DNA of 59,064 bases from Saprospiraceae bacterium (GTDB lineage Bacteria; Bacteroidota; Bacteroidia; Chitinophagales; Saprospiraceae): the NCBI GenBank assembly GCA_020848995.1, contig JADLHA010000031.1:1-59064 (forward strand). Reading direction: 5' to 3'. Below, piece by piece: positions 3,039-16,984 of the stretch (position 1 is the first letter of the stretch; the number at the start of each line of letters is the position of its first letter). The notes beneath the pieces are model-generated. The model had not been told where the DNA came from, did not search any database, and was given only the letters and a program-made list of their open reading frames with translations. Both the position numbers and the translations under genes were made by a program.

Positions 3039-4685
3039 TCAGAGGCCGGACAGCAACCGCTGGTAGCGCGACCTGTCGGCCAGGAGCAGGGAGGCTTCCA
3101 AAATGACTGGATCGTGGTCCATCCGTTTTTGGATGATGGCCTCCCGGTAACCGGTCCGCCCAACGATCTCTTCCTCGATGAGGTCGCATATCAATCCGGC
3201 ATTCCGGTCGAGGGCCTCCCATTGCCGTTTTTGTGCCATATCCTTAATCTTTTGAATCTCCGGCAACAGCGGGGAGGAAGGGGCTTCCCTGCTGGCTTCG
3301 GCCGACAGGTCCGCGATGCGCTGTTTTAGCAGACTCCCGTCGTCGAAGCGCTTGCGAACGAGGTAATCTCTGAAATCCGGGTATTCGGCGAACTGGAAGT
3401 TCCGGGCCGAATCGGGTGCAGGATGTTTCAGACAATAATCCGTTGCGTATTCGAAGATGTGATCCCGGTCGAGCACTTGCTGAACGATTTCCGGATAGTT
3501 GGCGGAAGGAAGCTCAACGTCTGGCTGAATCCCTCCTCCATCGTAAACCCGTCTGCCATTTTTAGTTTTAAAGGGTACCCTCAGGGAGTCGGGCAAGTGG
3601 ACCGGCTCTCCGTTTTCGTAGCGAACGCTCTGGATGCACCTTCCCGAAGGAATGTAATACTTGGCGATGGTGAGCTTAACTTTAGCATTGTACCCCACTT
3701 CGCGGGTGTTTTGTACCAAGCCTTTGCCATAACTGATCTGTCCGATCACCAGGCCGCGATCGAGGTCCTGGATGGTCCCGCTGACGATCTCAGAAGCTGA
3801 GGCCGATTTGCCGTTGATCAAAACGACGAGAGGGATCTGGGCATCTTCCGCCGTCTGACGGGTGTGGTAGGCCTGGTCTTTTTCTTTGTTTTTTCCTCTT
3901 GTGGTGGCAATTAGCTGGCCCTGTGGCAGGAAGACGTTGCAAACTTCGACGGCTTCGCCCAGCAGCCCGCCCCCGTTGTCGCGCAGGTCAAGGATCACTG
4001 CACTCATGGATGGGTTGGCAGTGCGCAGTTTTTTAAATGCTTCCCGGACGTTTTTTCCCGCATTTTCAGTAAAAGTCGTCAGCAGGATATAACCCACAGA
4101 ATCCGAGACCATGCCGGAGTAAGGGACGTTGGGAATGTTGACCTCGTCGCGTTGCAGGGTAAGCTGAAGCGATCCCTCCTGGCCTGGACGCGCAATGGTC
4201 AATTCCACTGTGCTGCGAGGCATGCCCCGCATTATCTGAAACAAATCTTCGCTTTCTTTTCCTTTTCCGTCGAGTCCGTTTACCGCCAGGATCTGATCTC
4301 CCACGCGGATACCCGCCACGTCGGCGGGATAGCCGCGGTAAACCTCGGTAATGGTGACATAGTCGCCTATTTTTTTGGCCCGTACACCCATGCCATTGTA
4401 TTTGCCTTCAAACACCAGCCGGTAATTCTCGATCTGAACTTCGCTGATGTAATTGGTAAAGGGATCCAGTTGCTGCAACATGGCGTCAATTCCCGCCTTC
4501 ATCAGACGCGACGGGTCGGTCTCATCGACGTAATGGGCATTGATCTCCTTGTACACATTGGCGAAGATTTCGATGTTCCGGGCAATCTCAAAGTGCTTGT
4601 CGTAAGACACGAAAACAGCACTGGACAGCAGGAGTGCCAGGGCTGACAGAGCTATGGGTTTTCTAAAAGACATGCGCGCTTTCAT
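3039..4685 (-). CDS. S41 family C-terminal processing peptidase (CtpA-like, PDZ domain)
   Basis: A 548-residue periplasmic serine protease. An N-terminal hydrophobic segment (PIALSALALLLSSAVFVS) is a signal peptide or anchor. A tail-specific protease N-domain follows (YVDETDPSRLMKAGIDAMLQQLDPFT), then a PDZ domain (YNGMGVRAKK...GYPADVAGIRVGDQILAVNG), then the S41 core. The catalytic dyad is visible as the serine of SASASEIVSG and the lysine of SYGKGLVQ. The family trims protein C-termini in the envelope. The ATG at 4685 (MKARMSF) is used; an ATG four codons later is equally possible. The open frame extends 42 codons further upstream, but that part does not look like protease sequence. Confidence 0.9.
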   Translation of the reverse strand: MKARMSFRKPIALSALALLLSSAVFVSYDKHFEIARNIEIFANVYKEINAHYVDETDPSRLMKAGIDAMLQQLDPFTNYISEVQIENYRLVFEGKYNGMGVRAKKIGDYVTITEVYRGYPADVAGIRVGDQILAVNGLDGKGKESEDLFQIMRGMPRSTVELTIARPGQEGSLQLTLQRDEVNIPNVPYSGMVSDSVGYILLTTFTENAGKNVREAFKKLRTANPSMSAVILDLRDNGGGLLGEAVEVCNVFLPQGQLIATTRGKNKEKDQAYHTRQTAEDAQIPLVVLINGKSASASEIVSGTIQDLDRGLVIGQISYGKGLVQNTREVGYNAKVKLTIAKYYIPSGRCIQSVRYENGEPVHLPDSLRVPFKTKNGRRVYDGGGIQPDVELPSANYPEIVQQVLDRDHIFEYATDYCLKHPAPDSARNFQFAEYPDFRDYLVRKRFDDGSLLKQRIADLSAEASREAPSSPLLPEIQKIKDMAQKRQWEALDRNAGLICDLIEEEIVGRTGYREAIIQKRMDHDPVILEASLLLADRSRYQRLLSGL

Positions 4686-4958
4686 TTGAGCAACAACACT
4701 ATTAACGCAGCCACCCCACCACAAGTATATCAGTACAAAACCGCTCCAGGGCACCCCGGTCTTGTGCTTTGAGGGGGTCCTGGTAACCGATGGGGGTAAG
4801 CCGGGCCGCAAAGTTTGGGCGAAATGGGCAAATTCGCCGACATTGATTTATTTTTCGCTTTGAGAGGCGACGACGCCTAATGGGTTCAGGGATTCCCTCG
4901 ATAAAGGAAGCCCCAATCCTGGCAAGATCATTAGACCAATGTTTAATCCACAGAGAAC

Positions 4959-5981
4959 TTGTTGCGCTTTATCCTGAGCCGGTTCATTACAGGAGCCTTT
5001 GCCTTTATGGCGATCCTGTGGCTGGGCTTGTGGATCATCCGGCAAATTCCGGGTAGCCATGCGGAGCTCGCAGCCTGGGAAGCTGAAGCTGAGCAGTCCA
5101 CCCCTGCAGGGCAAGAAGCCCCTTTGCCAGGATTTTACTGGAGCATCGGCAGCATTTTTTCGAAAAGCAGAGGGCCCTTTCTTCAATGGAACGGAACCGG
5201 GAATTCATTTCACCTTTGGGCTTGCCGTTACGCGAAGATGGATTTTGGGAATTCGCTGGTGGATGGCCTGCCAGTGAAAGAAAAATTCCGCAGGGCCTTG
5301 CCCTGGTCGATGGCTTTGCAGTTGCCAGCCATCGCCTTATTGTTATTGCTCAGCGTCTGGCTTGCCCTTGAAGCGGTCATGCGCTCCGGCTCCTGGTCGA
5401 TGGCCATTGCGGATCGCTTGCTTACAGGCCTTTACGCGGTTCCCGGCTTTTGGCTGGCGACCGTGTTGCTGTTGCTTTTTGCCAATGCAGAATGCCTCCA
5501 GATCCTGCCCACGGGCATGCACGGAGCTCCTTCGCCAAACCCCTATCGCCTGTGGTGGGTGGCCCCTCAGTATTACCTGCTCCCCTTACTTTGTTTGGTA
5601 TTGCCCTCGCTGGCATACCTGCAGCGGCTGGTGCGCAATGGCTTGCTGGAGCACCTGCAAAAGCCTCACTGGAAAAGAGCGCTGAGCACAGGGCTGCCAA
5701 TCCGAACGGCTTTGTTGATGGAAGCCCTGCCGGCAGCGCTGCCTCCATTGGTCACCTGGATGGCCGGAGTACTCCCGGCCCTGGTATCTGGATCGGTCAT
5801 CATTGAGCAGATTTTTAGCATTCCCGGTCTGGGCCGTTTACTCTACCAGAGCATTGCCGTGCGCGACTGGCCCATGGTCCAGTTTTTGTTTTTCCTTGGT
5901 TCCGCCTTGACGGTGCTGGGCTTCATGTGTTCGGACCTCCTGCTCCGATGGCTGGATCCGAGGCTAAAACAAACCGCGTGA
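4959..5981 (+). CDS. Peptide-type ABC transporter permease (DppB/OppB-like)
   Basis: A 340-residue inner-membrane permease. The first transmembrane segment begins almost at the start (FILSRFITGAFAFMAILWLGLWII), and further segments follow around 125-145, 160-185, 205-225, 265-285 and 305-330. The coupling (EAA) region reads ALPPLVTWMAGVLPALVSGS, followed by the family hallmark VIIEQIFSIPGLGRLL. The start is TTG at 4959: an in-frame stop at 4944 rules out anything more than a few codons upstream, and the first ATG (5007) would remove half of helix 1. It overlaps the next permease gene. No binding protein or ATPase lies nearby, so the substrate is unknown. Confidence 0.87.
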   Translation: MLRFILSRFITGAFAFMAILWLGLWIIRQIPGSHAELAAWEAEAEQSTPAGQEAPLPGFYWSIGSIFSKSRGPFLQWNGTGNSFHLWACRYAKMDFGNSLVDGLPVKEKFRRALPWSMALQLPAIALLLLLSVWLALEAVMRSGSWSMAIADRLLTGLYAVPGFWLATVLLLLFANAECLQILPTGMHGAPSPNPYRLWWVAPQYYLLPLLCLVLPSLAYLQRLVRNGLLEHLQKPHWKRALSTGLPIRTALLMEALPAALPPLVTWMAGVLPALVSGSVIIEQIFSIPGLGRLLYQSIAVRDWPMVQFLFFLGSALTVLGFMCSDLLLRWLDPRLKQTA

Positions 5982-8043: not shown

Positions 8044-9633
8044 ATGAAGAATCATTACAGCCGTTCGATTCAAGACCTGAACGTACTCTCAGGCAAAGAC
8101 GATTCTCAAAGCAATACATTGAGGATCAGTATTTTGCAAGAAATGAGGCGTTCCCAAACCCTGCCGCTGCAGGCCATTCCGGCCTACGTTTCAACGTTGA
8201 TTTACCAATTGGCCTGCCCAAGTTCACCAGAGTTGAGATTGCTCGCCGAAGACGAGTTGGCCCGCCTTACCCAGCGGCTCAAGCGGACGGCAAAGGCCCC
8301 TCCTGCGTGGTTAAATTCCGGTCTGCCGTACACTTCAATCCAGTGCGCTCTGTCTCACAGGATGTTGCGTTGGTTGTTGCACGACGAGGCCGAATTTGAG
8401 TTGTCAGGTTTGAAAGCAACTAAAAGTGACCTGCTGAATCTCCTCCGGGTAACCTTACCCGACCTGGAGCGCGGGATGGCAGATCTGGCCGGGAACAATG
8501 GCCAGATCCTGGAACTGTTGAAGCTGAAACCCAAGCAGTTGCAGTCTTTCTTGTTGTCGGAGTTTCAAAAGCTGGACCACCTGCCCTTTTTAAAGGACCA
8601 GCTTTTTCAGCAAATGGGACTGATTTGCAAGCTTCGCCTCAGCGATCCTGCACTTTCCCTGCCTTTCAACCGCGTTCCGGTCGACTCAGTGCACTACGCC
8701 CGATCGGCCAAGGTTCCGGAACTGGCCTTGCGTGAAGCGATCTGCGAGCCAATTCCCGCACCTGAATTTTTATCGATCGATATGCGCAACGGCATTCCCA
8801 GGGTGTGCAGGATGCAATTGCTCTACGATGGCGTTGAGTTGGATGCCGTGACCTACATGGATACGGAAAGCCTCCACTATTACGCCTTTGAGAACGGGTT
8901 TACCGTGGCCATTTTTGCTGCAGGGCACGATCGGCAGTTGCCGCTGGAATCCCTGGTTGGTTTTGCGCTGTTTCAAAATGGCATACCCGCATGCATTGGA
9001 GAAGCAAGGGTTTTCGGAAGAAAGGTGCAGGTATTTCCTCATTACAGCGGATGGTTCCGGCAGGCTCTCTCTCTCCGATGCGGATTTGCAAATGTATTGA
9101 GGACTCTGCACGGCGTTTTTGGGGTCTGGCGGCTGGAGATCGCGGGCCACACGGCCGACGAAGTTCGGCAATTGCTTGCGCTGGGATTCCGGACTGCGGA
9201 GCAGTCAGCTCCCAAATTGAATGGAAAATCCAAGAAATCTCCCCAAGGCGGGCCTGAGGTTTCCAAAGAGTTGCTGAAAAAGCTCGTTTCGCGTCCTTTG
9301 GCATTTGCCTTGCACAAATCCGGCGGACCCGACTTGGAGACCATCCGCGCCAAGGTCACGGCATACATCAACAAACATCACGACGGCAACCGCCACCGGG
9401 CTGAGCGGGCATGCGTACAGAACTTTTTGCAAAAGACCGGATTCAGGAAGCCACACGAGCCGGAATTCCGGAGGACACTTGCTGATGTGGCCTTCGTCTA
9501 CGACGCCATGCAATGGAACCACCCCGATCAGGTACTCCACTTGAAGGAGATGATCCTCAAAAAACCAAAGGACGTCTACCGATACCAGGAAGAACTGCTC
9601 AAAGTGTTGGAGTTCACGGTGCGGAAGTCCTGA
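8044..9633 (+). CDS. Hypothetical protein, 529 aa
   Basis: I do not recognise this protein with confidence. It is soluble: no signal peptide or membrane segment. The N-terminal 230 residues are mainly helical and leucine-rich (LKLKPKQLQSFLLSEFQKL). A mixed alpha/beta section follows (about 240-390: CRMQLLYDGVELDAVTYMDTE, then FGRKVQVFPHYSGWFRQAL and a hydrophobic stretch around VFGVWRLEIAGH). The C-terminal third is charged and helical. The 330-385 section vaguely recalls GNAT-like proteins of proteobacteria that end in a GFR motif; this is a weak impression only. A -7 box TATTTTTG (7969-7976) lies about 70 bp upstream. The gene stands alone between HU and the phosphate operon. The start at 8044 follows a CAAGAG stretch, and no better ATG is present. 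Confidence 0.75.
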   Translation: MKNHYSRSIQDLNVLSGKDDSQSNTLRISILQEMRRSQTLPLQAIPAYVSTLIYQLACPSSPELRLLAEDELARLTQRLKRTAKAPPAWLNSGLPYTSIQCALSHRMLRWLLHDEAEFELSGLKATKSDLLNLLRVTLPDLERGMADLAGNNGQILELLKLKPKQLQSFLLSEFQKLDHLPFLKDQLFQQMGLICKLRLSDPALSLPFNRVPVDSVHYARSAKVPELALREAICEPIPAPEFLSIDMRNGIPRVCRMQLLYDGVELDAVTYMDTESLHYYAFENGFTVAIFAAGHDRQLPLESLVGFALFQNGIPACIGEARVFGRKVQVFPHYSGWFRQALSLRCGFANVLRTLHGVFGVWRLEIAGHTADEVRQLLALGFRTAEQSAPKLNGKSKKSPQGGPEVSKELLKKLVSRPLAFALHKSGGPDLETIRAKVTAYINKHHDGNRHRAERACVQNFLQKTGFRKPHEPEFRRTLADVAFVYDAMQWNHPDQVLHLKEMILKKPKDVYRYQEELLKVLEFTVRKS

Positions 9634-9783: not shown

Positions 9784-11019
9784 ATGAAAGTCTTTCTAGG
9801 GCTTCTCCTGGGATGCGTGTCTTGTACCCTGTCCCTGGGCCAGGATGCTGCAGTGCATGACAGTATTGTTCTACAATTGAACCAGGAATTGAGCGATCTA
9901 AAAAAATTGAAGATCAGTGGTTACCTGCAGGCCCAGTTCCAGCTTGCAGAGGCGAAGGGCATTGCCTATCCGGGTGGAAATTTTGCAAGTGGTGTCGATA
10001 AGCGGTTCAGCATGCGCAGGGCGAGATTCAGCGCAAACTACGAAACCCGTTCCATGCGTTGGGTCCTCGTTACGGAGAACACGGAGCGGGGCATCAGCCT
10101 CCATGATATTTTTGGGGTTTACAAAATTCCAGAGGCCAATATGCAATTGACTGCCGGACTCTTTCCTCGGCCATTTGGTTTTGAGCAAAGCTACTCGACC
10201 CGCAACCATGAAGGACCAGAACGTGCCCGGTTCTCTACGACCCTCTTACCCGCAGAAGCAGACCTCGGCTTGATGTTGAGTCACACGGCGCTTGGTCCCG
10301 TGCGACTCGATGTAGGAGTGTTTAACGGTACCGCTACGGCTGCCGATTTCGATTCCTATAAGGATTTTGTCATGCGCGCATCCGTGAAGCAGAATTTCGG
10401 AAAACAATCGCTGAGCGCTGGCTTGTCTTATTATACCGGGTCGGTGGCACAGGGCACGGCTTATCGTTATGAACTGAAGAATAATTTGGACGTACCCGAA
10501 TTTATCTTGCGCGACACCCTTGCTCACGTCAAGGGCAGTGCAGTACCTCGCCAATATTTCGGCGCAGATGCGCAGTACTCTTTCACTACTTCGATTGGAA
10601 AAACCACCCTGCGAGCTGAATATGTCGGTGGGCAGCAACCCGGCCTCGCAGCAAATTCTGATAGCCCAAAGAGCAGTGCACCTCCTGGCACAGATGCCTA
10701 CCTGCGCGATTTCAACGCGGTGTGTGGATATTTCCTGCACCGGTTTGGAACTTCCCCCTGGATGTTGGTATTGAAGTTTGACTGGTACGATCCCAATACA
10801 GCAATCGGTGGAGTCGACATCGGGCAATCCGGATCAAGGACCGGTGCGGCAGATATCAAGTACACGACCCTGGGTCTCGGAGTGAACTGTTATCTGAAAA
10901 ACGTTTATTTCATGGCGTACTACGACTTTATTACCAACGAGGAAGCTCCCTTTTTAGCGGGATTCAAACAGGACATTCGTGACAATGTATTTACCATAAG
11001 AACACAATTTCAATTTTAA
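9784..11019 (+). CDS. Phosphate-selective porin (OprO/OprP family)
   Basis: A 411-residue outer-membrane beta-barrel with a signal peptide at 1-19 (MKVFLGLLLGCVSCTLSLG, then QD). After a short helical stretch (LNQELSDLKKLK) come alternating strands rich in tyrosine and aromatic ends, closing with FTIRTQFQF, an ideal C-terminal barrel strand ending in phenylalanine. The KRFSMRRARFSANYE segment near 70-85 is the usual early block of the OprO/P family (fRRaRl.). It is the first gene of the pst operon, 4 bp before pstS, so anion selectivity for phosphate is strongly suggested by context. It would carry phosphate into the periplasm for PstS. Confidence 0.85.
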   Translation: MKVFLGLLLGCVSCTLSLGQDAAVHDSIVLQLNQELSDLKKLKISGYLQAQFQLAEAKGIAYPGGNFASGVDKRFSMRRARFSANYETRSMRWVLVTENTERGISLHDIFGVYKIPEANMQLTAGLFPRPFGFEQSYSTRNHEGPERARFSTTLLPAEADLGLMLSHTALGPVRLDVGVFNGTATAADFDSYKDFVMRASVKQNFGKQSLSAGLSYYTGSVAQGTAYRYELKNNLDVPEFILRDTLAHVKGSAVPRQYFGADAQYSFTTSIGKTTLRAEYVGGQQPGLAANSDSPKSSAPPGTDAYLRDFNAVCGYFLHRFGTSPWMLVLKFDWYDPNTAIGGVDIGQSGSRTGAADIKYTTLGLGVNCYLKNVYFMAYYDFITNEEAPFLAGFKQDIRDNVFTIRTQFQF

Positions 11020-11023
11020 CTTT

Positions 11024-11869
11024 ATGATTATGAAAAACAGCTTATTATTTACTGCTCTTTGCCTGTTGGGGTATGCCTGCGGCGGCCCAGGGAGCAGCGC
11101 GACAAAATCCATTACCGTAAAAGGCAGTGATACCGTTTTGCCCGTTGCGCAAAAGACCGCCGAATCGTTCATGGCGGCCAACCCCGGAGTATCCATCACC
11201 GTTGTGGGAGGGGGTTCCGGAACGGGGCTTACAGCCCTCATGGATGGCAACACCGATATCGCTATGTCATCCCGGGATCTCAAAGCAGATGAAAAACTCA
11301 AATTGCAGGACAAACAGATTGAATTTGAGATCAAGACACTTGCAGTGGACGCCCTTGCAGTCATTGTTCATCCATCCAATCCCGTTCAACGGCTGACACG
11401 CGAGCAGCTCGAGGGCATCTTTACCGGTAGCATTACCAACTGGAAAGACCTTGGCGGAGAAGATGCTCCCATTGTCGTGTATTCCAGGGAAAACAGCTCC
11501 GGTACCTATGAGTTTTTTAAAGAGCACGTGATGGACAAAAAAAATTATGCTAGTTCAGTGCTCAACATGCCTGCCACGGGTGCCATTGTTCAAAGCATTA
11601 GTCAGACCACTGGCGCCATCGGTTATATAGGTTTTGCATATATGACTCCTGAGGTAAAACCATTGGAAGTATCTTATGATCAGGGACAGACTTTTGTCGG
11701 CCCCAGTATGGAGTCCGCAAAAGACAAGAGTTATCCAATCTCCCGTCCGCTCTATTACCTGTACGATGTTAAAAATGCAGAGAAAGTTGCCGCGTATATG
11801 GATTATGTTCTTTCTGCCGAGGGGCAGCAAATCGTAGAGCAAGTTGGGTATATCCCTTTGAGCAAGTGA
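11024..11869 (+). CDS. pstS: Phosphate ABC transporter substrate-binding protein PstS
   Basis: A 281-residue lipoprotein with signal MKNSLLFTALCLLGYAC and acceptor cysteine at about residue 19. Ligand-site motifs are visible: KGSDTVLP at 33-40 (the usual GSdTv/GaGAt loop), GGGSGTGLTALMDGNTDIAMSSR at about 62-84, HPSNPV at 116-121, and YSRENSSGTYEFF at 153-165, whose R..SGT binds phosphate. It captures phosphate for the PstCAB permease. Two in-frame ATGs lie at 11024 and 11030; the second gives a cleaner signal peptide. It is located between the porin and pstC. Confidence 0.95.
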   Translation: MIMKNSLLFTALCLLGYACGGPGSSATKSITVKGSDTVLPVAQKTAESFMAANPGVSITVVGGGSGTGLTALMDGNTDIAMSSRDLKADEKLKLQDKQIEFEIKTLAVDALAVIVHPSNPVQRLTREQLEGIFTGSITNWKDLGGEDAPIVVYSRENSSGTYEFFKEHVMDKKNYASSVLNMPATGAIVQSISQTTGAIGYIGFAYMTPEVKPLEVSYDQGQTFVGPSMESAKDKSYPISRPLYYLYDVKNAEKVAAYMDYVLSAEGQQIVEQVGYIPLSK

Positions 11870-11876
11870 TTCGGGG

Positions 11877-13067
11877 ATGAAGCGGTTGGTTGAACGGAGT
11901 GCAGAGGGATTGATCAAGGCATGCGGTTTTGCATCTGCACTGACCGTATTGCTCATCGTATTTTTTTTGTTTAAAGAGGGGATATCCTTTCTCAACTCCT
12001 CTCCGGTTGAGGATCATCACGCTTTATTTGTGCATTCCGGCAACCCCGTCACCCAACTTGAAGAAGGCCAGATCAAGGATTTATTCGACAAGAAAATCAA
12101 TCATTGGAAACAGCTGACCGACTACGGCCATCCAGTGGTCCTTTTAACTGCCAACGACCTGGAGCGCCTGTTTACTCCGGAGCAACTGGGGAACAATCTG
12201 GAGTACCTCAGCGCATGCGTTGCCCATTACATCGACACGGTGCCAGGCACGCTGGCATATTTTTCTGAGCGACAACTGAGTCTGAGCCCTGCAATCCGCA
12301 TCGTGCCGGTGCCGAACATCAGTTTGTGGAAATTTCTTTCTGGCAGGCAATGGTTTCCCACCGCCCAGCCGGCCGCCATGATGGGCACCTTACCACTGAT
12401 TTTGGGTACGCTGCTGGTGAGCCTGCTCGCCATTTTGATTGCGCTTCCTCTGGGTTTGGCTGCCGCGATTTACCTTGCAGAGATCGCCGATCCCAGGATG
12501 CGAAACATTTTAAAACCGGTCATCGAACTCCTATCGGGGATCCCTTCCGTGGTGTACGGGTTTTTCGGCTTGGTGGTGATTGTGCCCTTTATTCAAAATC
12601 TATTTGGGCTGCCCGTTGGTGAAACGGCGCTTGCTGGAAGCCTGCTGTTGGCCATTATGGCCCTTCCGACCATCATTACGGTATCGGAAGATGCCATCCG
12701 GACGTGCCCCATTGCGGTTAAGGAGGCAAGCCTGGCACTGGGTGCTTCGCATTGGCAAACCATTTTTCGCGTCATCCTGCCCTATGCCTCGTCGGGCATT
12801 ACGGCAGCTGCCATACTGGGAATTGGCCGTGCAGTGGGCGAGACCATGGCCGTGCTGATGGTCACGGGCAATGCAGCCCTGATGCCTACTTCGCTCACCC
12901 AGCCGGTGAGAACGATTCCCGCAACCATTGCGGCTGAGCTCGGAGAAGCTTCCTTCGGCGGTTTGCATTTCAAGGCGCTCTTTGCCCTGGGTTGTCTGCT
13001 CTTTCTCATTACCCTGGCCACCAACCTGCTGGTTGAACGCACCACCAGCAAAAGTCGAAAAAGCTGA
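11877..13067 (+). CDS. pstC: Phosphate ABC transporter permease PstC with a PstS-like periplasmic insertion
   Basis: A 396-residue inner-membrane permease. Helix 1 is at about 18-33. Helices 2-6 run from about 168 to the C-terminus, with the MetI-like coupling block EASLALGASHWQTIFRVILPYASSGI and the PstC segment LLSGIPSVVYGFFGL. Between helix 1 and helix 2, residues 46-146 form a large periplasmic domain that aligns with the middle of the neighbouring PstS: HSGNPVTQLEEGQIKDLF / INHWKQL here against HPSNPVQRLTREQLEGIF / ITNWKDL there. The phosphate-binding R..SGT of PstS is not kept (ANDLERLF). PstC is usually about 300 residues, so this insertion accounts for the extra length. It starts 7 bp after pstS. 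Confidence 0.93.
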   Translation: MKRLVERSAEGLIKACGFASALTVLLIVFFLFKEGISFLNSSPVEDHHALFVHSGNPVTQLEEGQIKDLFDKKINHWKQLTDYGHPVVLLTANDLERLFTPEQLGNNLEYLSACVAHYIDTVPGTLAYFSERQLSLSPAIRIVPVPNISLWKFLSGRQWFPTAQPAAMMGTLPLILGTLLVSLLAILIALPLGLAAAIYLAEIADPRMRNILKPVIELLSGIPSVVYGFFGLVVIVPFIQNLFGLPVGETALAGSLLLAIMALPTIITVSEDAIRTCPIAVKEASLALGASHWQTIFRVILPYASSGITAAAILGIGRAVGETMAVLMVTGNAALMPTSLTQPVRTIPATIAAELGEASFGGLHFKALFALGCLLFLITLATNLLVERTTSKSRKS

Positions 13068-13072
13068 AAACC

Positions 13073-13954
13073 ATGATCTCCTTCCCCAAACAAGTTGACC
13101 GCGAGAAGAGATTGCACCAGGCCATTGCTTTTTGGATTGCCCGGATCATTTCGTACTCGATCCTGCTCATCCTCTTTCTCATTCTGTTTTTTATTCTCAA
13201 GCGGGGCATTGGGGTAATCAACTGGGAGTTTCTGACGGCCATGCCAATCGACGGTATGACCAAAGGCGGCATTTTGCCCGCCATCGTTGGAACCCTCTAC
13301 CTCGTTTTGATGAGCATGATCATAGCATTTCCCGTCGGCGTGTTGTCGGGAATCTACGTCAACGAATACGCCAAGGAAGGAGCAATCAAGCAGTTTGTCA
13401 AAATGATGACGAACAACCTGGCAGGTGTACCCTCTATCGTGTTTGGATTGTTTGGAATGGCGCTGTTCGTCAACCGGTTGGGATTTGGTGCCTCCATCCT
13501 CGCGGGATCGCTCACTTTGGCGTTATTGGCTCTGCCTTTGATCATACGCACGACGGAAGAGAGTCTCAAAGCCGTGGACGACACATTCCGCCATGCAAGT
13601 TATGCCTTGGGTGCCAGCAAATTGCGCACCATCCGGAAAGTAGTCCTGCCTATTGCCTTTCCCAACATCATTACGGGGCTGATTTTGGGAATTGGCCGCG
13701 TCTCGGGTGAAACAGCACCTATACTGTTTACCGTGGCAGCGTATTTCCTACCAAAGTTGCCCCAGTCCCTTTTTGACCAGGCAATGGCCTTACCCTACCA
13801 CCTTTACGTCATTTCGACGAGTGGCACCAACATTCAGGCATCCCGCCCCATTGCCTATGGAACCGCCGTCATCCTGATTCTGATCGTTCTGGGAATGAAC
13901 CTCCTGGCAAATTTTGTACGAAGTCACTACAGCCGCAAGGTAAAAATGAAATAA
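13073..13954 (+). CDS. pstA: Phosphate ABC transporter permease PstA
   Basis: A 293-residue inner-membrane protein of normal PstA length. Helix 1 is at about 22-45 ([21 protein letters not shown]), followed by the [16 protein letters not shown] loop typical of PstA. The MetI-like coupling loop reads [32 protein letters not shown]. The block [17 protein letters not shown] corresponds to the conserved PstA/PstC segment. It pairs with PstC to form the channel. The gene starts 5 bp after pstC and ends 4 bp before pstB. Confidence 0.95.
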
Positions 13955-13958
13955 GGCT

Positions 13959-14717
13959 ATGCGCACGAAAATAGAAGCGAGCAATGTGCACTTGCATTAC
14001 GGAGATTTTCATGCATTGAAAGGCATCAATATGCAAATCCCCGAACGCACCGTGACGGCCCTGATTGGGCCCTCCGGTTGCGGGAAGTCGAGCTATTTGC
14101 GTCTTTTCAACCGGATGAACGACCTCATCGATGGCGTGCGCATTGACGGAAAAGTCCTGATCGACAACACGGACATATACTCCATTCCCCAGTCGGAGGT
14201 CGACCGTTTGCGCAGAAAGGTTGGGATGGTCTTTCAAAAGCCCAACCCGTTCCCAAAAACCATATTTGAGAATGTTGCTTACGGATTGCGGGTAAACGGA
14301 TTGAAGGATAAAAAGGTCATTGGCGAACAGGTTGAGAAGGCTTTGCGCCAGGCAGCATTATGGGAGGAAGTCAAAGACAAACTAAAAAAATCTGCTTTCG
14401 AGCTTTCGGGAGGACAGCAGCAGCGCCTTTGCATTGCGCGTGCCATGGCCATTGAGCCTTCAATTCTGCTGATGGACGAGCCGGCATCGGCACTTGATCC
14501 AATTTCAACCGGAAAGATCGAGGAGCTCATTTACGAGCTCAAGAGCAACTTTACCATCATCATCGTTACCCACAATATGCAGCAGGCTAGCCGCGTGAGC
14601 GATTACACCGGATTTTTCCTGCTGGGCGAACTCATCGAATTCGATGAAACGAAAAAGATCTTCCGCAATCCGGAAAAGCAACAAACAGAGAACTACATTA
14701 CAGGCCGATTTGGTTAA
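13959..14717 (+). CDS. pstB: Phosphate ABC transporter ATP-binding protein PstB
   Basis: A 252-residue ABC ATPase with all motifs: Walker [10 protein letters not shown] at about 36-44, Q-loop in [21 protein letters not shown] (the KPNPFP stretch is diagnostic of PstB), signature [16 protein letters not shown], Walker [14 protein letters not shown], and H-loop [10 protein letters not shown]. It powers phosphate import through PstCA. The C-terminal [23 protein letters not shown] is typical of PstB. It starts at the ATG 4 bp after pstA and is followed 18 bp later by phoU. Confidence 0.97.
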
Positions 14718-14735
14718 TACTATAAGCAGATCATC

Positions 14736-15413
14736 ATGCTACATGTTGAAAGTGAAATCCAGGAACTAAAGGACAGGCTCATTGCGATGTGGGACCTCGT
14801 CATCAAACAACTTGACAAAACACAGCAGGCGCTGGAGGGTCACGATCGCGACCTGGCCCTCGAGATCCAGGCTACAGAGCGGCGAATCAATGCATTTGAG
14901 CTTACCATCGACCGCTCCTGTGAGGATTTTATTGCGCTGTTACAGCCAGTTGCTTCAGACCTGCGCTTTGTGCTCACCGCACTCAAGATCAACACCAACC
15001 TCGAGCGAATCGGCGATATTGCCTGCGGGATCTCAGAATTCATTAGCGATCATGATACTGAATTCAACCGGGAAATCGTCAAGCATATGGAGGCCGACCG
15101 CATGCTGATCCTGGCCATTGAAATGGTCAAAAATTTACGGGAGGCCTACCTCCTGGAAAATACTGCGAAGGCCCGCACCGTTTACAAGCGCGACCGCATG
15201 CTCGACAAGATCAACAGCGTGGCATCTTTCCGGGCAGTAGATTGCCTGGACAAATACCCGGACCAGAAGCGGCAGACACTTCACATGCTTTCGATGATTC
15301 GAAAAATTGAGCGGATTGGCGACCAGGCCAAGAACATTGCCGAAGAGATCATCTTCTACATCGAAGCCAAAGTGATCAAACACAAACGCAAGGAGAAGGA
15401 CAAAGAAGAATAA
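14736..15413 (+). CDS. phoU: Phosphate signalling complex protein PhoU
   Basis: A 225-residue all-helical protein built of two PhoU three-helix repeats. The metal-binding motif copies read VASDLRFVLTALKINTNLERIGDIA (first) and a second repeat ending MLSMIRKIERIGDQAKNIAEEIIF; the E..RIGD cores bind metal. PhoU bridges PstB and the PhoR kinase to repress the Pho response when phosphate is plentiful, and limits import. As last gene of the operon its position is standard. A lysine/glutamate-rich tail (KHKRKEKDKEE) ends the protein. Confidence 0.95.
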   Translation: MLHVESEIQELKDRLIAMWDLVIKQLDKTQQALEGHDRDLALEIQATERRINAFELTIDRSCEDFIALLQPVASDLRFVLTALKINTNLERIGDIACGISEFISDHDTEFNREIVKHMEADRMLILAIEMVKNLREAYLLENTAKARTVYKRDRMLDKINSVASFRAVDCLDKYPDQKRQTLHMLSMIRKIERIGDQAKNIAEEIIFYIEAKVIKHKRKEKDKEE

Positions 15414-15517: not shown

Positions 15518-16984
15518 TCACATATTCTTTTCTTCTTCGCATTTATGCGTTCCGTCAAAATATTTTTGAATCACTTCTTCCCAGAGGTAGTGAGCGATCT
15601 TTCTCCCCATGCTGAGACCTTCGATGTTGTCGGTTTGGATGTGATATCCGCCGAGAACCCTCGAAATTCCTGCAAGTTCTGCGGTAGCCGTGAACGTTGG
15701 CAGCGGAATGGACACGGGATCACCCGGCGTCTCAGTAATGATGCCCGCTACGCGCTTTTCGACTTCTCCAAAATGGTCACTCCCCGTAAAGAGTTCGAGC
15801 ATTTTTGAACAAGCTCCACTTACCGTACTGTGACCGGACACATAAGCCGGAAACGGAGGAGAAACGAAATCGGCAGGGGAGTAAGGATGCCATCTTTCGG
15901 CAGGGATGTCCAACGTTCCCTTGTCGGGACCGCCCCAGCCGCGGATGGACTTTCCTTTGTAATATTCGCGCACCAGTGTCCAAGGACGGGAAATGTCGTA
16001 ATACCTCTTGGTTTCCCAGCAGGCGATAAAGGCATCCATGCTGGTATTGCCCACGGCAAAATACAATTTTACGTCGCGGTCGAGGTCATTTTTATCCCTG
16101 TAGGATACCATTTGTGCAAACCGCAGCCAGTGTCCAGCCTGACCCGTCGAGCGAGGACCATCGCGCATAAATTCGATGGTAGCTTTCCGCTCCGCGTCGA
16201 GGTGTGAATTAAAGTCAATCAATTGATCCACCTCCGCTTTGAGTTTGGGATCTCCGTACTTCAGTGGATCTGGTGCGCGGAATTGCGCAGCAGTCCGGAG
16301 CCCAAAAGGCTTTACTCGGTACCAGTGAGGCACAATGAAATCGACGAGAAAGGTATCTCCGTTGGCTCTCACAAATGGGAGGGGGTGCCAGCGATCGGGA
16401 TCGATCACGCGGTTGTAGTGATTGACTGGTTTGTAATACGTGTAATCAGAATAGGGGGTGCCGATTGAACCGGGTTCATCTCCCAACTGATTTGAGCCAT
16501 CGTTGTGGCGATAGCGTATGATCTCCTGGGCTACCAGCGTGCCGATACCTTCGGGTTGGGTTTTGTCTGTTGAAGCCTGTCCGGGATCATAGCCAAGTTT
16601 GCGAAATTCCCCTTCGAGGTACGCTTTGTCTTTTGGGAAAAGGTCCATGAGCACGGGCAGCATGGCATAACTAATGGCCTTCTCTTTATTTTTCTGCGTG
16701 TGCTCGGTTGACGGTCTGCGAAGTTTTCCCCCAAACCGGGTTCCTACTGCCTTTTTGTCGTAGCAGGCCCATGCATCGTACATCGCGGTCATGGCTATGC
16801 CCAACTGCCTGGCCTGGATCGGCGGAAGGGCGCCGTACCGGTCAACGTCGTTGGCAGTAACTTCCAGTGCAATGTCGAGCCACTTATTCGCAAGACTGGG
16901 TTTGAAAGAGGTAGACTGCTGGCCGGAAAGTTGAAACTGCAGGCCGAGCAAAATAAAAATGGTGAGAACGCTAAGTCTTTTCAC
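15518..16984 (-). CDS. Vanadium-dependent haloperoxidase-like / PAP2 superfamily secreted protein
   Basis: 488 residues with an N-terminal signal peptide (MKRLSVLTIFILLGLQFQLSG). The C-terminal part has the acid-phosphatase/vanadium haloperoxidase site: KRYYDISRPWT at 326-336 (the K.....R part), YVSGHSTVSGA at 381-391 (the SGH part) and RVLGGYHIQTDN at 442-453 (the R......H part). These residues hold vanadate or phosphate. The N-terminal 300 residues match the helical part of bacterial haloperoxidase homologues. Substrate and whether it binds vanadate cannot be told from sequence. It is monocistronic, ends at a good terminator (15462-15488), and is divergent from the LytTR gene across a 361-bp gap. 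Confidence 0.85.
   Translation of the reverse strand: MKRLSVLTIFILLGLQFQLSGQQSTSFKPSLANKWLDIALEVTANDVDRYGALPPIQARQLGIAMTAMYDAWACYDKKAVGTRFGGKLRRPSTEHTQKNKEKAISYAMLPVLMDLFPKDKAYLEGEFRKLGYDPGQASTDKTQPEGIGTLVAQEIIRYRHNDGSNQLGDEPGSIGTPYSDYTYYKPVNHYNRVIDPDRWHPLPFVRANGDTFLVDFIVPHWYRVKPFGLRTAAQFRAPDPLKYGDPKLKAEVDQLIDFNSHLDAERKATIEFMRDGPRSTGQAGHWLRFAQMVSYRDKNDLDRDVKLYFAVGNTSMDAFIACWETKRYYDISRPWTLVREYYKGKSIRGWGGPDKGTLDIPAERWHPYSPADFVSPPFPAYVSGHSTVSGACSKMLELFTGSDHFGEVEKRVAGIITETPGDPVSIPLPTFTATAELAGISRVLGGYHIQTDNIEGLSMGRKIAHYLWEEVIQKYFDGTHKCEEEKNM

Follow-up and report, generated by a model that had tools for sequence, protein, structure and literature searches.

A lobe of the phosphate-binding protein PstS, without its phosphate loops, lies within the permease subunit PstC of a Saprospiraceae bacterium and other Bacteroidota

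The phosphate permease subunit PstC of a Saprospiraceae bacterium contains an insert of about 104 residues (44–147), which lies between helices 1 and 2. Judged from its sequence, this insert corresponds to a PstS-type binding protein's lobe II, which is present whole and not as a scrap. It was found in a stretch of 59,064 nucleotides, contig JADLHA010000031.1, here termed the window. A complete PstS is encoded directly upstream, and the lobe in the permease has lost the phosphate loops that PstS retains.

The genes pstS-pstC-pstA-pstB-phoU form one operon (11024–15413, + strand), and every gene exceeds the cut-off of its curated model (Table 1). The assignment of PstC to TIGR02138 is thus above the curated cut-off, and pstC adjoins the pstS, pstA and pstB genes. 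The lobe-bearing PstC is the sole PstC of this genome and therefore should be the working one. Directly upstream of pstS is a porin-like frame of 411 aa (9784–11019, + strand) that matches Pfam Porin_O_P with E 8.7e-4 and, at 19.1 bits, falls slightly short of the cut-off of 20.9 bits; together with pstSCAB-phoU it would form a phosphate island. Further upstream, a 529-aa frame (8044–9633, + strand) has no Pfam match at E ≤ 1 and no NCBIfam match at E ≤ 1e-5. A 488-aa frame convergent with phoU (15518–16984, − strand) matches DUF6851 (E 1.2e-43) and the second domain of vanadium chloroperoxidase (VCPO_2nd, E 1.4e-16).

Table 1. The pst operon and the parts of its pstC gene, in window coordinates
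Feature	Coordinates	Strand	Description
pstS	11024..11869	+	phosphate-binding protein, 281 aa, complete, ligand loop present; TIGR02136 262.1 bits, cut-off 206.6
pstS lobe II segment			begins at residue 109 of PstS
pstC	11877..13067	+	phosphate ABC permease subunit, 396 aa, lobe insert inside; TIGR02138 288.6 bits, cut-off 196.45
PstC residues 1–43	11877..12005	+	N-terminus and helix 1 (model helix 2–40; AlphaFold)
Lobe insert, PstC residues 44–147	12006..12317	+	PstS lobe II homologue without phosphate loops
Insert residues 56–87	12042..12137	+	best conserved half, common to PstS: N-P-V ... I-F-D ... W ... G-G ... I
Insert residues 91–96	12147..12164	+	counterpart of the PstS phosphate loop (SR.SSGT), with another residue for Arg and a deletion of Gly-Thr
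PstC residues 148–396 and stop	12318..13067	+	W-x-P-T segment, permease core helices 2–6; Pfam BPD_transp_1 193–387, TIGR02138 147–389, model helices
pstA	13073..13954	+	second permease subunit (293 aa), insert-free; TIGR00974 290.9 bits, cut-off 193.45
pstB	13959..14717	+	ATPase; TIGR00972 398 bits, cut-off 343.2
phoU	14736..15413	+	phosphate signalling regulator; TIGR02135 159 bits, cut-off 130.25

The unusual length of this PstC, 396 residues against a usual 300 or so, had been pointed out in the original prediction, and a length survey agrees, as lobe-free PstC proteins have about 300 residues. The TIGR02138 alignment starts only at residue 147, which is position 36 of the 296 in the model, and therefore about 100 additional residues follow PstC helix 1. 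It was also predicted that a PstC segment aligns with the middle of the upstream PstS. The alignment quoted is found by BLASTP (PstC 46–94 against PstS 109–157), with 16 of 49 residues identical and E 8e-7 in a single comparison. Local alignment of PstC 44–147 with PstS gives a score of 79, a value not reached by any of 2000 shuffles of the insert (mean 27.8, maximum 55). Control segments of 104 residues taken from PstC residue 101 onward score 25–37 against PstS, the one at 101–204 (score 35) still overlapping the second half of the insert. Pairwise comparison thus makes the homology visible for the first half only (46–94), and the second half is brought in by profiles.

An hhalign comparison of 45 inserts with 44 PstS sequences gives a probability of 98.8 and E 6.2e-17 over insert columns 5–94. 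Against PDB sequences, the insert profile matches the PstS entries 4q8r (E 4.8e-16), 4gd5 (6.4e-16) and 4exl (3.4e-12), and the alignment with 4q8r places insert model positions 3–99 of 108 onto PstS 79–186. These profile comparisons match the insert to lobe II columns only, and to nothing in lobe I. The best-supported borders (12006–12317, residues 44–147) are slightly wider than the 12012–12314 (residues 46–146) first proposed, which stand in substance. Of the 45 homologous inserts, Pfam PBP_like_2 (PF12849) matches 43 when E ≤ 0.01 is required and 27 when E ≤ 5e-6 is, and the domain is therefore in principle visible to automatic annotation. The relation to this family is borne out by the relatives, but the window's own insert lies outside both sets and, at 14.8 bits, below the gathering cut-off of 27. 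This low score is what could be said for a chance resemblance, with the insert unrelated to PstS; that reading is hardly credible, as it is refuted by the BLASTP match, the shuffles, the profile–profile and PDB matches, and the predicted structure.

Structural modelling agrees with the profiles. The AlphaFold model of the whole PstC, built with 45 sequences, is moderately sure (pLDDT 77.0, pTM 0.66) and consists of a long helix at 2–40, strands and short helices at 48–143, and the permease helices from 172. Its best Foldseek matches are three E. coli PstC chains, with E from 2.8e-14 (9k3y_B) to 6.2e-14. Modelled alone, the insert gives a pLDDT of 84.6 and a pTM of 0.74, and its 22 best Foldseek matches in the PDB are all phosphate-binding proteins (best E 1.4e-4; six hits in total at E ≤ 0.001). 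The TM scores by query are 0.56–0.65 with an rmsd of 6–10 Å, so that the insert matches lobe II in topology rather than closely. The prediction that helices 1 and 2 of the permease flank an embedded part of a solute-binding fold is therefore upheld by profiles, AlphaFold and Foldseek alike, and the part is a whole lobe.

What the lobe has lost and what it has kept are clear from an alignment of 100 inserts with 89 partner PstS. The ligand Arg of the R..SGT motif is in none of the 100 inserts and in all 89 PstS. The Gly-Thr of SGT is deleted in all 100 inserts, whereas the PstS partners retain the Gly in 89 of 89 and the Thr in 88. A second PstS loop, a Thr-Gly ahead of the next helix, is likewise deleted in all inserts, and its Gly is retained in 88 of the 89 PstS. 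In PstS these positions are phosphate contacts. The absence of R..SGT, correctly noted for the window insert, thus extends to its relatives, and the insert also has neither the two lobes nor the cleft of a functional PstS. An Arg one column ahead of the old ligand Arg is found in 59 of the 100 inserts; the window's own insert has Thr-Ala-Asn-Asp at the old loop site. Residues that make the fold are retained, Trp77 in 100 and Asn56 in 99 of 100 inserts. The Gly pair of the GG turn is present in 88 and 91, the window's own being Thr-Asp. Other positions are conserved specifically in the inserts: D71 in 87% (Thr in 91% of PstS), K67 in 81% (Glu in 88% of PstS) and G105 in 90%. The inserts carry a mean net charge of −5.9, compared with +0.75 for the PstS lobe II segment. 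With the ligand Arg and both loops gone, the lobe would not be expected to bind phosphate.

Among 396 genomes of the window's class (figures tallied by hand from match tables), the PstC of 58 aligns with the lobe-bearing profile starting no later than position 14, and 58 others have a PstC match at E 2e-50 or better that begins at position 113 or later, mostly in frames of about 300 aa; the remaining 50 genomes with any match have weaker ones only. In a phylum sample of 392 genomes, seven have an insert match at E ≤ 1.2e-34, all labelled own or same class, and the next insert-profile matches (5.5e-16 and weaker) are inside PstS-sized frames. Each of the seven has exactly two insert-profile matches, which in the window's genome are the insert and PstS. 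Within the genus of the window, lobe-bearing PstC is found in six of eight other genomes and there is no match in two. Seven genomes of one genus, with genomes of about 2 Mb, carry a diverged and shorter insert (PstC frames L191–L196).

A scan of 84,980 species' genomes, which picks up only near relatives of the query, yielded 50 loci. The whole architecture is present in 46 of these, and those that are named belong to Bacteroidota groups. Isolates among them are Rufibacter, Adhaeribacter, Sabulibacter, Parabacteroides and Millionella. Neither a frame error nor an artefactual gene fusion explains the window's pstC, because the identical architecture recurs in these 46 loci as one match over the whole protein, isolates included. 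As to the other four, L048 and L049 are without the insert, L050 is cut by a contig end, and L047 has the gene in two frames. In L047, a Tannerellaceae metagenome contig, the lobe-bearing pstC (3988–5187) is split into frames of 174 and 278 aa, which may be an assembly error. Of 101 lobe-bearing pstC, 87 are preceded by a pstS gene of the same orientation no more than 1.5 kb away. For five Parabacteroides loci with lobe-bearing pstC (L040, L042, L043, L044 and L051), the retrieved sequence of at most 4 kb contains no same-strand pstS. A crude lipoprotein-signal pattern does not distinguish the PstS partners of lobe-bearing PstC (40 of 89) from others (24 of 51).

In other classes of the phylum, the loop between PstC helices 1 and 2 is often long, acidic and of low complexity, and 14 of the 17 printed examples have ETYGE- or YNPE-like repeats. 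PstC frames with such a loop are L211–L214, L217–L223, L226, L229 and L230. These loops imply that the helix 1–2 site tolerates filler. No insert match within PstC was found in any of 20 stretches from these classes.

The history of the lobe was approached with 184 distinct PstC frames. Lobe status was defined by the residue count in the insert columns. Of 105 frames above the threshold, four from two genomes (L118, L124, L212 and L229) were excluded, as they have a low-complexity filler loop and fall on the lobe-free side of the tree. This leaves 101 frames with the lobe and 82 without it; the broken frame L047 was placed with the former, for a comparison of 102 with 82. In trees of the permease core, the lobe-bearing PstC are all on one side of a branch, with a FastTree support of 0.971 for all sequences; IQ-TREE recovers the same branch with a thinned set of 22 + 22 at 93/86, below the starred level. 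The lobe side has no lobe-free sequence. The inserts themselves form one group (99/97 in the careful tree, 0.998 in FastTree). One gain of the lobe with no loss within the sample looks the simplest reading of these trees.

The partner PstS may or may not have been the source of the lobe. In FastTree the partner PstS are nearest to the inserts by distance, whereas in the careful tree, which has 114 columns only and a bootstrap that had not settled, the inserts do not group with the partner PstS; forcing them together is not rejected (p-AU 0.238). PstS profile A3, built from the partners of lobe-bearing PstC, matches these at E 1e-93 or better and the partners of lobe-free PstC at 2.5e-21 to 8e-67.

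Median Ka/Ks is 0.077 for the insert, and the permease core has 0.021; in PstS the values are 0.054 (lobe I) and 0.038 (lobe II). The insert value is from 13 usable of 14 close pairs: the insert Ks of L001–L003 is saturated, the distant pair L016–L189 (0.97, with a doubtful Ks) is retained in the median, and several other Ks values exceed 1. Judged by these ratios, the insert is under purifying selection and is maintained rather than decaying. It is also the fastest-evolving part of the system, the mean distance over 68 systems being 1.36, against 0.43 for both the permease core and PstS lobe II. Across these 68 systems, once the PstC core and PstA are controlled for, insert and PstS show no correlated divergence (partial correlation 0.09, with 76 of 500 permutations as high), and the partial correlation of insert and PstA is 0.43.

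Perhaps the lobe is a non-binding periplasmic docking or clamp domain similar to MalF-P2. This reading by analogy is the one we favour, and it is held tentatively. From the topology (a basic N-terminus and an odd number of helices before the insert), the lobe is inferred to face the periplasm, and it would sit beside the transporter mouth, at the side formed by PstC. In PstS the two chain ends of lobe II run on into lobe I; in PstC they would run into helices 1 and 2, and the permease would thus occupy the place of lobe I. The lobe might then contact the incoming phosphate-loaded PstS and help keep it above the entrance, and PstS held in this way would favour delivery and ATPase activation, as MalF-P2 does for the maltose-binding protein. 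Docking is preferred because a folded, non-binding lobe at such a place has a working analogue in MalF-P2 (residues 91–271), which a passage of PMC3150292 describes in contact with MalE, and also because the two binding domains of OpuA touch each other according to part of PMC11065425.

In favour of docking are the homology, the fold, the helix 1–2 position in an otherwise normal PstC, the loss of the ligand loops, purifying selection, and the complete PstS that is still present. Against it, the correlated divergence of insert and PstS is nil while that of insert and PstA is not, the insert diverges about three times faster than PstS lobe II, which is more than a tight conserved interface would predict, the same loop tolerates filler in other classes, and the fold of MalF-P2 is a different one. 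It is conceivable, although doubtful, that the lobe acts as a blind 'third lobe' built into the permease, one whose competition or cooperation with the real PstS over docking would determine the threshold at which high-affinity phosphate uptake sets in; this would be regulation by partial mimicry of the partner.

The nil correlation with PstS and the filler-tolerant loop keep two other readings alive. A partial pstS copy may have landed once in a permissive loop and been kept merely because it must fold, with no special role. The acidic low-complexity loops of other classes and the fast evolution of the insert are what such a spacer would predict, but the lobe is in 101 intact sequences and one broken frame on one branch and absent from none, the Ka/Ks of 0.077 speaks for constraint, and D71, K67 and G105 are conserved in the inserts specifically; we consider a pure spacer somewhat unlikely. 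A lid or plug, which we regard as unlikely, would cover the permease mouth in the absence of docked PstS, reduce leak or idle ATPase activity, and be displaced by loaded PstS, its fold being a copy of the lobe that is normally there. The chain ends would turn the old cleft face towards the permease, to judge from the fold, the lobe has no ligand site, and its divergence follows PstA more than PstS. Yet the full-length model that bears on this orientation is only moderately sure, and the PstA correlation may reflect shared ancestry.

Very improbable is a sensing role, in which the lobe itself would detect phosphate or another anion, or complete a second site with PstS lobe I, and feed PhoU signalling. 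The presence of phoU in the operon and the Arg one column before the old ligand Arg are compatible with it, but the ligand Arg is missing and Gly-Thr deleted in every insert, an acidic residue stands beside that Arg column in 87%, the mean charge is negative where that of PstS lobe II is slightly positive, and the window's own insert has Thr-Ala-Asn-Asp there.

In the open-access literature, as judged by titles and the openings of abstracts, no description was found of a single blinded binding-protein lobe inside a permease. Each ingredient is already known separately: PstC, PstS, periplasmic docking domains, and binding domains fused to permeases. Binding proteins of ABC importers are otherwise known as free or fused whole to the permease, and a single lobe without a ligand site, inside a permease next to a full PstS, would amount to a natural experiment that separates the other tasks of a lobe from substrate holding. 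The finding bears on how type I importers divide docking from gating, and this transporter has the further role of feeding PhoU-mediated phosphate signalling. It also indicates a possible origin of a MalF-P2-like docking domain, here from the binding protein itself.

Comparison with known systems sets the insert apart. Its likeness to lobe II of PstS (PBP_like_2; PF12849, TIGR02136) is one of homology over the whole lobe, as given by the hhalign match and by 4q8r and 4gd5 in both sequence and fold. However, PstS has two lobes with ligand loops, whereas the insert is one lobe, without either phosphate loop, and part of a membrane protein. E. coli PstC (9k3s/9k3x/9k3y) is alike in the permease core and is the best fold match, but has 319 aa and no lobe. 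The DUF3708 domain (PF12501) of some PstC-like proteins is named by Pfam as a phosphate-transporter domain; its profile detects Caulobacter among 14 control genomes and has no match in the window's genome, nor in PstC at E ≤ 1.

GlnPQ and OpuA likewise have a binding-protein fold joined covalently to the permease, but these are complete two-lobed substrate-binding domains at the chain end. The PstC insert is not a complete substrate-binding domain; it is a non-binding half domain within the chain, with a free PstS alongside. If MalF helices 3–4 correspond to MalG helices 1–2, MalF-P2 would be at a place in the helix order that matches the position of the PstC insert between helices 1 and 2 in the AlphaFold model. 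The two differ in fold, that of MalF-P2 not being known to be related to a binding-protein lobe, whereas the PstC lobe derives from a binding protein. MalF-P2 is said to signal substrate availability, going by titles cited in PMC8134467. As the PstC lobe would be, it is a periplasmic domain of considerable size carried by a single permease subunit, and in the maltose system that domain contacts the binding protein, as a passage of PMC3150292 describes.
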